Origin: Pseudanabaena sp. FACHB-2040
Lineage (GTDB): Bacteria > Cyanobacteriota > Cyanobacteriia > Phormidesmidales > Phormidesmidaceae
Length of the DNA: 64,000 nucleotides
Direction: 5' to 3'
NCBI RefSeq assembly: GCF_014696715.1
Contig: NZ_JACJQO010000012.1
Span: 1-64,000 of the forward strand
The notes beneath the pieces were generated by a model. That model searched no databases and was not told where the DNA came from. It was given only the letters and a program-made list of their open reading frames with translations. Below, in pieces: positions 7,378 through 8,800 of this stretch. The position numbers and the translations under genes are program-made. The stretch's first letter is position 1. Every line of letters begins with the position of its first letter.

Positions 7378-7623
7378 TTAATCCTGACTCTCATCTTTGA
7401 GCACATCTCCCAAATAGCGCTGCACAAACTCCTCAGCAGCCCGGTGATTTAGGGTTTTTAGGGCTTTGAGAATATCGGCAGCTGTCTCAGCCGTGGGGTC
7501 TCGCTCTTCGTGAAACCACTTATAGATAGCAGAGCGCTGCAACCCCATCGCAACGGCAAGGCTGTTTTGGCTAATGCCGTACTTGGTTAGGACTTCCCTT
7601 AGGGCTTTACCGGCTTTTCCCAT
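7378..7623 (-). CDS. XRE-family helix-turn-helix regulator
   Basis: This 81-residue DNA-binding protein has a Cro/CI-type helix-turn-helix at about residues 14-45 (ISQNSLAVAMGLQRSAIYKWFHEERDPT) and a helical C-terminus (AAEEFVQRYLGDVL). It resembles a family of small XRE proteins frequent in filamentous cyanobacteria. The ATG at 7623 follows AAGGAG closely. The longer frame from 7680 would overlap one of two operator-like palindromes (7658-7681), so 7623 is preferred. It is divergent from the small gene at 7751 with both palindromes between them, which suggests autoregulation plus control of that gene. Confidence 0.85.
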   Translation of the reverse strand: MGKAGKALREVLTKYGISQNSLAVAMGLQRSAIYKWFHEERDPTAETAADILKALKTLNHRAAEEFVQRYLGDVLKDESQD

Positions 7624-7657
7624 GCTCCTTATCGTCCCAAAGGAGCACAACACCGTA

Positions 7658-7681
7658 AATGTAATCGGTTGAGATGACATT
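7658..7681. promoter_or_regulatory. Operator-like palindrome, site 1
   Basis: Imperfect 24-bp palindrome AATGTAATC-N6-GATGACATT between divergent genes. A second copy with the same half-sites and a different core lies at 7707-7730, with centres 49 bp apart. The likely binder is the adjacent XRE protein (inference). Confidence 0.65.
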
Positions 7682-7706
7682 CTAATAAAAAAGCCCTATG
7701 ATGGCT

Positions 7707-7730
7707 AATGTAATCGCAAGAGATGACATT
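7707..7730. promoter_or_regulatory. Operator-like palindrome, site 2
   Basis: Same AATGTAATC-N6-GATGACATT half-sites as 7658-7681, but with core GCAAGA instead of GGTTGA. Symmetry extends by three bases each side (GCT...AGC). It ends 20 bp before the ATG at 7751, so it would overlap the promoter or 5' leader of that gene. Confidence 0.65.
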
Positions 7731-7750
7731 AGCTTTTCGAGGTGCTCAAT

Positions 7751-8005
7751 ATGGTTAAAGCCTTTCTAACTTCAGACATTCCAGCCCACGAAGCTCAAGC
7801 TGCCGTGACTGCCGATTCTGCCGCTGAATCTGGTAGAGAGAGCGTCAGAATTTTAGTAAAAGGCTCGCCCCGTAGCGTGAAGCGAGTAATTCACGAACTC
7901 TATCGGGTAGGTTTTGCCGAGGTTAGGGAGTGGAGCAAACCTCAAGCCACCGGCCGAGTCAACGAAGTGATAAGGATTTTGACTCGCTACGTTTTGGGAG
8001 AATAG
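7751..8005 (+). CDS. Small conserved cyanobacterial protein, unknown function
   Basis: This 84-residue soluble protein has a conserved-looking core (SVRILVKGSPRSVKRVIHELYRVGFAEVREWSKP) resembling a recurrent cyanobacterial family with no assigned role. The N-terminal 35 residues look poorly ordered (Ala-rich, acidic). ATG 7751 has GAGGTG 6 bases upstream; a GTG at 7742 is in frame but lacks this. It is transcribed away from the XRE regulator and shares the two operator-like palindromes, so the pair probably forms a regulatory unit. Confidence 0.7.
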   Translation: MVKAFLTSDIPAHEAQAAVTADSAAESGRESVRILVKGSPRSVKRVIHELYRVGFAEVREWSKPQATGRVNEVIRILTRYVLGE

Positions 8006-8108: not shown

Positions 8109-8480
8109 CTATAGCTGCTGCTTAGCAAGAGCTATAAATTTTTCTGCTCTCTCACTCTGTGTCTCTACCTCTGCTCGGCTGGTTTTAGAAGCAGTATCAT
8201 AGTCAGCTTTTGTACGAGACTGTTCTACTTGAATCAGATTTCGATGAAACTCTTTGGGGATGCGACCCGGTTTTGCATAGATTTCACCGAACTTGGCAAT
8301 CACCCCAGAATGTTTAGAGAGTGATAGCCCTTCCTTTAGCAGGAAAGCCTCTGCGATGTAAAACATTGCATAGTAGGCTCTAGAGACAGCGATATCGTAG
8401 AGGCTCTCTGCAAGCAGTAATCTTGCGGCTTGGACATTTTCCTCAGCTTTTGTAACAAGCTGCTACTGCTCAAACGTCAA
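8109..8480 (-). pseudogene. HEPN-domain gene interrupted by an amber codon
   Basis: From a TTG at 8480 that overlaps the stop of the nucleotidyltransferase gene (TTGA), the frame reads LTFEQ, then TAG at 8463-8465, then an uninterrupted HEPN protein (QLVTKAEENVQAARLLLAES, then AVSRAYYAMFYIAEAFLLKEG) to the stop at 8109. A CAG-to-TAG change would explain it. The next ATG (8366) would delete the first helix with the AYYAMFY core. The C-terminal part contains RIPKEFH, which fits a loose HEPN RX4-6H pattern. In intact MNT-HEPN pairs the HEPN protein is a ribonuclease toxin that its partner neutralises. Suppression or an alternative start such as CTG is possible. Confidence 0.72.
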
Positions 8481-8800
8481 AGTGGACCCCCTTCCTGATA
8501 GACGTTACGAATAAGAGCATTTCCCTGGCTTTGGTAGCGGCTAGCAGAGACAAAAACATTGCAGATCACAACGCTGTAAGTCAAACAAAGATCTGAGATA
8601 AATTCGCCTGTTCGCTCGATCTCGATCCAAGGATCAATCTCACCTTTGAGGACTACCATCACGTCGATATCAGAATCAGGCTCTGCTTCTTGGTGAGCCC
8701 GAGAGCCAAACAACATTAATCGCTCTAGGCGTTCACTGTAGAGGTTTTTAAGGTAAGCCTGGAGCTGATCGAGGATTTCAGTCAGCTGAGGATGTTGCAT
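8477..8800 (-). CDS. MNT-type nucleotidyltransferase (HEPN partner, antitoxin-like)
   Basis: This 107-residue minimal nucleotidyltransferase has the signature GSRAHQEAEPDSDIDVMVV near residues 32-50, with the catalytic GS and DxD residues. Proteins of this type in the MntA class act as antitoxins by adding nucleotides to the HEPN toxin. The HEPN frame begins inside its stop codon, the usual translational coupling, but that partner is broken by a stop. The antitoxin itself looks intact. No strong ribosome site is visible before 8800. Confidence 0.85.
   Translation of the reverse strand: MQHPQLTEILDQLQAYLKNLYSERLERLMLFGSRAHQEAEPDSDIDVMVVLKGEIDPWIEIERTGEFISDLCLTYSVVICNVFVSASRYQSQGNALIRNVYQEGGPL

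Follow-up and report, generated by a model that had tools for sequence, protein, structure and literature searches.

A divergent XRE regulator and small-protein gene sharing a paired operator: a probable private repressor switch from a cyanobacterial family

The stretch of DNA analysed here (the window, 64,000 nt) carries a gene for a small XRE regulator and, diverging from it, a gene for a small protein from a cyanobacterial family that has no name, with two nearly identical sites between them. What the sequences show directly is the divergent layout, the presence and conservation of the operator pair, the privacy of the operators at each locus and their covariation with the recognition helix. 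That the couple is an autoregulated repressor switch dedicated to its own locus is an inference that we hold with good confidence, in the absence of binding, expression or mutant data. The divergon most likely represents one of many privately addressed repressor switches; this is a reading of sequence, and neither binding nor repression has been measured. It is based on the site pair, on operator sequences that follow the recognition helix, on the -35 element in site 1 and on the start point in site 2. Dimerisation, binding, the direction of repression, the inducing signal and the role of the small protein as the regulated effector are all inferred. The preliminary description had suggested a small autoregulated switch, which the conserved pair, the covariation and the promoter overlap largely support, but bistability has not been shown. 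The elements of the divergon are the following.

7378..7623, minus strand: XRE (HTH_3) regulator of 81 aa, with a Pfam HTH_3 match, a five-helix AF2 model and a conserved start
7624..7646, minus strand: leader of the XRE gene with a possible stem, GCTCCTT/AAGGAGC, which abuts the start codon and folds in the window member
7655..7661, minus strand: GTAAATG element, whose distance to the XRE start is fixed and which most divergons keep
7658-7681, no strand: operator site 1, AATGTAATC-GGTTGA-GATGACATT, whose right half includes the predicted -35 of the small gene
7674..7702, plus strand: predicted promoter of the small gene, sigma-70-like (ATGACA, 17-nt spacer, TATGAT)
7707-7730, no strand: operator site 2, AATGTAATC-GCAAGA-GATGACATT, in which the small-gene start point is inferred to lie
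7751..8005, plus strand: small protein of 84 aa from an unnamed cyanobacterial family, with a beta-alpha-beta core at residues 29-82

The two 24-bp sites were found exactly where they had been placed, with centres 49 bp apart and between the start codons at 7623 (minus) and 7751 (plus), and the symmetry of site 2 does extend to GCT/AGC (7704-7733). They had been presented as matching palindromes with different cores. The pair is real, but the palindromes are imperfect, with eight of nine pairs matching and one mismatched, and the cores differ at only three of six positions, so that 21 of the 24 bases are identical between the sites. The left arm is AATGTAATC, and the reverse complement of the right arm is AATGTCATC. 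When up to three mismatches were allowed, 0.01 occurrences of the operator pattern were expected in the window and four were found; these four are the same two sites counted on both strands. Across the 6.28-Mb genome, the two sites are the only copies with fewer than two mismatches. The next-best matches carry two or three mismatches, and a control pattern has two such matches per strand. Many unrelated copies of the motif would have refuted the operator proposal, and no other close copy exists in the 6.28 Mb.

The small-gene promoter prediction matches the consensus at 10 of 12 positions. Its predicted -35 lies within site 1 and its start point within site 2, and the TATGATG between the two sites is found again in orthologs. 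On the other side, GTAAA (7655-7659) keeps the same distance to the XRE gene in most divergons although their operators differ. The GTAAATG element is likely, by inference, to be the -10 region of the XRE gene. The XRE promoter has not been confidently identified, and the evidence for it consists only of the conserved GTAAA element and a weaker promoter-scan hit. Operator overlap is present for the small-gene promoter and can only be inferred for the XRE promoter. As a conserved covarying RNA, the possible stem in the XRE leader stays only a candidate: the best helix is 71% paired (67% in shuffled sequences), and double changes number 99 against a largest value of 89 in 500 shuffles, a modest excess, with a stem register that varies between members.

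In the proposed mechanism, an XRE dimer would bind both palindromes in the intergenic region that separates XRE from the divergent small-protein gene. At site 1 it would cover the small-gene -35 region and touch the conserved GTAAA upstream of XRE, and at site 2 it would cover the start point of the small gene. With both sites occupied, the small gene would be shut off and the production of XRE itself limited, until a signal that is still unknown released the repression. Alternatively, XRE could act as an activator of the small gene, or switch on one promoter and repress the other; the sites flank the promoter, and divergent regulators are generally known to do either. Activation nevertheless seems unlikely to us, since a -35 in site 1 and an inferred start in site 2 are positions where a bound dimer normally blocks the polymerase.

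The XRE protein meets the requirements for membership in Pfam HTH_3 (PF01381; 39.7 bits, cut-off 23) and for a helical HTH fold (five helices in the AF2 model, pLDDT 91). Its recognition helix spans approximately residues 29-37 (QRSAIYKWF), and the start at 7623 (MGKAG...) is backed by the family-wide conservation of MG[KR]A. The small protein was also modelled (pLDDT 82, above 95 in the beta-alpha-beta core). It had been described as a recurrent cyanobacterial family. There are 28 matches to it in the source genome, and 43 of the 59 related genomes searched contain it. No family was found for it in Pfam, NCBIfam, PHROGs or PADLOC, and 76 family members scanned singly against Pfam gave none either. 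A search of solved structures gave no reliable match for its fold (best E 0.13), and its sequence gave nothing at useful E-values against the PDB. A literature search on the divergon or the leader RNA described below found nothing on the small-protein family.

The source genome contains 10 matches to the XRE and eight XRE/small-protein divergons, including the window pair; some XRE copies have no small-protein partner. In evenly drawn samples of the phylum, 27 of 292 genomes have the XRE and 21 of 244 have the small protein, and the pair is therefore patchy and not universal. In the loci fetched from the 59 related genomes, all 85 XRE/small-protein pairs are divergent. A scan of named genomes, which partly overlaps the related-genome set, gave the same layout for 82 of 83 pairs; it covered Nodosilinea, Leptolyngbya, Phormidium, Halomicronema, Microseira, Nostoc, Fischerella and others. 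XRE genes are tandemly duplicated on one side of a single divergon at L035/L093, L022/L133 and L120. A different divergent small protein, with the motif GRFRxRxDAExHLxxLR, stands beside the XRE copies of L167, L090, L168 and L083; the one member tested has no Pfam family, and palindromes are visible between the XRE gene and this partner in L167 and L090.

A type II toxin-antitoxin system, with the XRE as antitoxin and the small protein as toxin, would be suggested by the weak similarity of the XRE to addiction-module antidote models. These scores all fall under the curated cut-offs, no known toxin or antitoxin family was found above cut-off, and the libraries searched gave no toxin family match for the small protein. 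Moreover, the 85 pairs never form one operon, so that the criterion of co-transcription is not met, and many small-protein copies in the same genome have no XRE. We consider the toxin-antitoxin explanation very improbable. As a separate observation, the window contains HEPN and nucleotidyltransferase (MNT) genes beside the divergon (8109-8800, minus strand), which are likely a toxin-antitoxin pair. The HEPN match in this region begins at profile position 35, and the N-terminus therefore seems to be missing or in another frame.

A divergent HTH gene with paired palindromes and a distant HTH similarity to phage repressors could also be the relic of a prophage immunity region of the CI/Cro kind. 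This origin is the least credible that we considered. No relative of the XRE was found in 50,697 phage records or, by pattern scan, in IMG/VR contigs, and the small-protein partner is not DNA-binding by any library searched. The proposed repressor switch has known counterparts. Cro/CI-type HTH repressors use paired operators in a divergent control region, as in the immunity regions of lambda and P22. The XRE divergon resembles them in its small HTH protein, in pseudo-palindromic operators that overlap the predicted small-gene promoter and, by inference only, the divergent XRE promoter, in a recognition helix that appears to set specificity and in the many private specificities among relatives. 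It differs from them in that it is not phage-linked here, has a non-HTH small protein as partner and two sites instead of three, and in that divergons with different operators coexist in one genome. The controller (C) proteins of restriction-modification systems, which are partly activators and lie in an operon with the endonuclease, are likewise small, autoregulatory and XRE-like, with tandem operator sites; in the XRE divergon, the partner gene runs divergently, and none of the libraries searched identifies its product as an enzyme.

The same XRE domain is also found fused to a C-terminal region in L083 (1501-2895), L128, L166 and on the Synechocystis plasmid pSYSM (L311). This region carries an HNH_4 nuclease domain, as shown for L083. 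The XRE-HNH proteins (L083; Synechocystis pSYSM, hit H5) share a homologous N-terminal XRE domain with the divergon regulator, and for the plasmid hits the identity is 43-55%. They differ in the fusion to the HNH_4-containing region, and no small partner of the divergon family was found beside them. Genes for DUF4007 and a cysteine desulfurase lie near the pSYSM protein, an arrangement suggestive of a defence island, based on DNA phosphorothioation or of another type.

The paired sites are a property of the whole family. Close to the XRE gene, at a constant position, lies a 20-bp stretch that recurs downstream, either direct or inverted. In 74 non-redundant divergons, site 1 and site 2 agreed at 15.84 of 20 positions (11.42 for shuffled sequences). 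Both the spacing of the sites (~26-53 bp) and their relative orientation (direct or inverted) vary among divergons, and therefore no single fixed cooperative geometry is conserved. Retention in orthologs had been put forward as a check on the window pair, and every ortholog with the same recognition helix does keep both palindromes (six in the related-genome set, the window member included, and 9 to 10 in the named-genome scan). Operator sequences vary widely between groups (TGTAATC, TGTTGTC, TGTCAC, TGTTTG, GTCCAATTGGAC and others), and each of these sequences goes with a type of recognition helix.

The privacy of the operators is visible within the source genome. Its eight divergons have largely distinct operators, with diagonal values of 15-20 and off-diagonal values mostly of 9-13. 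The exception is L059/L048, where the sites are alike (15-16) and the helices are also similar (NRSTVYQ, NRATVNQ). In general, site 1 matches the downstream region of another divergon at 14.67 of 20 positions when the helices are the same and at 10.61 when they differ. Helix identity remains a predictor of site similarity once the rest of the XRE is controlled for (partial r 0.28, Mantel p<=0.001), although this does not fully remove shared ancestry. The strongest covarying XRE positions, A32, H38, S31 and N20, are in or beside the HTH. In L006 and L162, the small proteins are 97% identical, whereas the XRE helix and the operator both differ. Among pairs with small-protein identity >0.7, site similarity is 0.49 when the helices are different (n=15) and 0.88 when they are identical (n=50), which argues that the operator follows the XRE. 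As far as sequence comparison can tell, it appears to be the recognition helix, and not the small protein, that the operator tracks; shared ancestry is not fully excluded. The XRE had been named as the natural binder of the sites, and the covariation of helix and operator favours this indirectly, without binding data. A possible action of XREs in trans on small-protein paralogs that lack an XRE was rejected: nearby sequence matched the operators no better than it matched shuffled operators.

About 40 small-protein paralogs of the source genome have no XRE and lie behind a covarying leader RNA of ~220 nt. Many of them begin with MFQS and share the long leader.

L251-L303, for example L253:1501-1726, plus strand: leader RNA examples, about 40 places in the source genome (G000)

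A covariance model was built from an alignment of 11 leaders. At E<=0.1 it matches 44 places in the source genome, of which 40 have E<1e-4, and it has matches in 35 of the 59 related genomes; no copy was found in the 64,000-nt window. The small protein lies directly downstream in 52 of 53 loci checked. In an alignment of 56 sequences, 90% of cells pair (35-51% in slid controls), and 36 of 40 pairs show compensatory changes, a count that is flattered by the fitting of the alignment to the model. The MAFFT alignment of 11 sequences already has double changes at 18 of the 40 pairs. In all 55 tails that were folded, the 3' strand of the closing stem P1 can alternatively pair within a hairpin immediately upstream of the start codon. 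The riboswitch criterion of a covarying, aptamer-like structure with a mutually exclusive expression platform is met. No match to Rfam 15 was obtained at the gathering score for 19 loci, and one leader searched at E<=10 gave only chance-level matches. The leader thus resembles a riboswitch or a leader bound by a protein; without a known ligand, ligand-dependent switching is only a hypothesis.

We lean, with only moderate assurance, towards one small-protein family under two unrelated private layers of control: either the XRE/operator couples, which are largely orthogonal, or a new riboswitch-like class of leader found almost only upstream of this family, with up to about 40 copies per genome. 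The leader RNA may be a bigger discovery than the divergon. The proposed mechanism of the divergon is of a known kind, that of a repressor which controls its own gene through two operator sites. The novelty lies in the unnamed partner family and in the many private operator pairs, several of them within single genomes. Together the divergons amount to a large, naturally occurring collection of XRE recognition helices matched to operators, which is useful for the protein-DNA code and from which candidate orthogonal repressors for cyanobacteria could be drawn. The small protein becomes more puzzling in view of its RNA-led paralogs, which merit a study of their own. This widespread family, still without a name, is under unusually elaborate control, which includes a leader RNA without an Rfam match as well as the XRE divergons.
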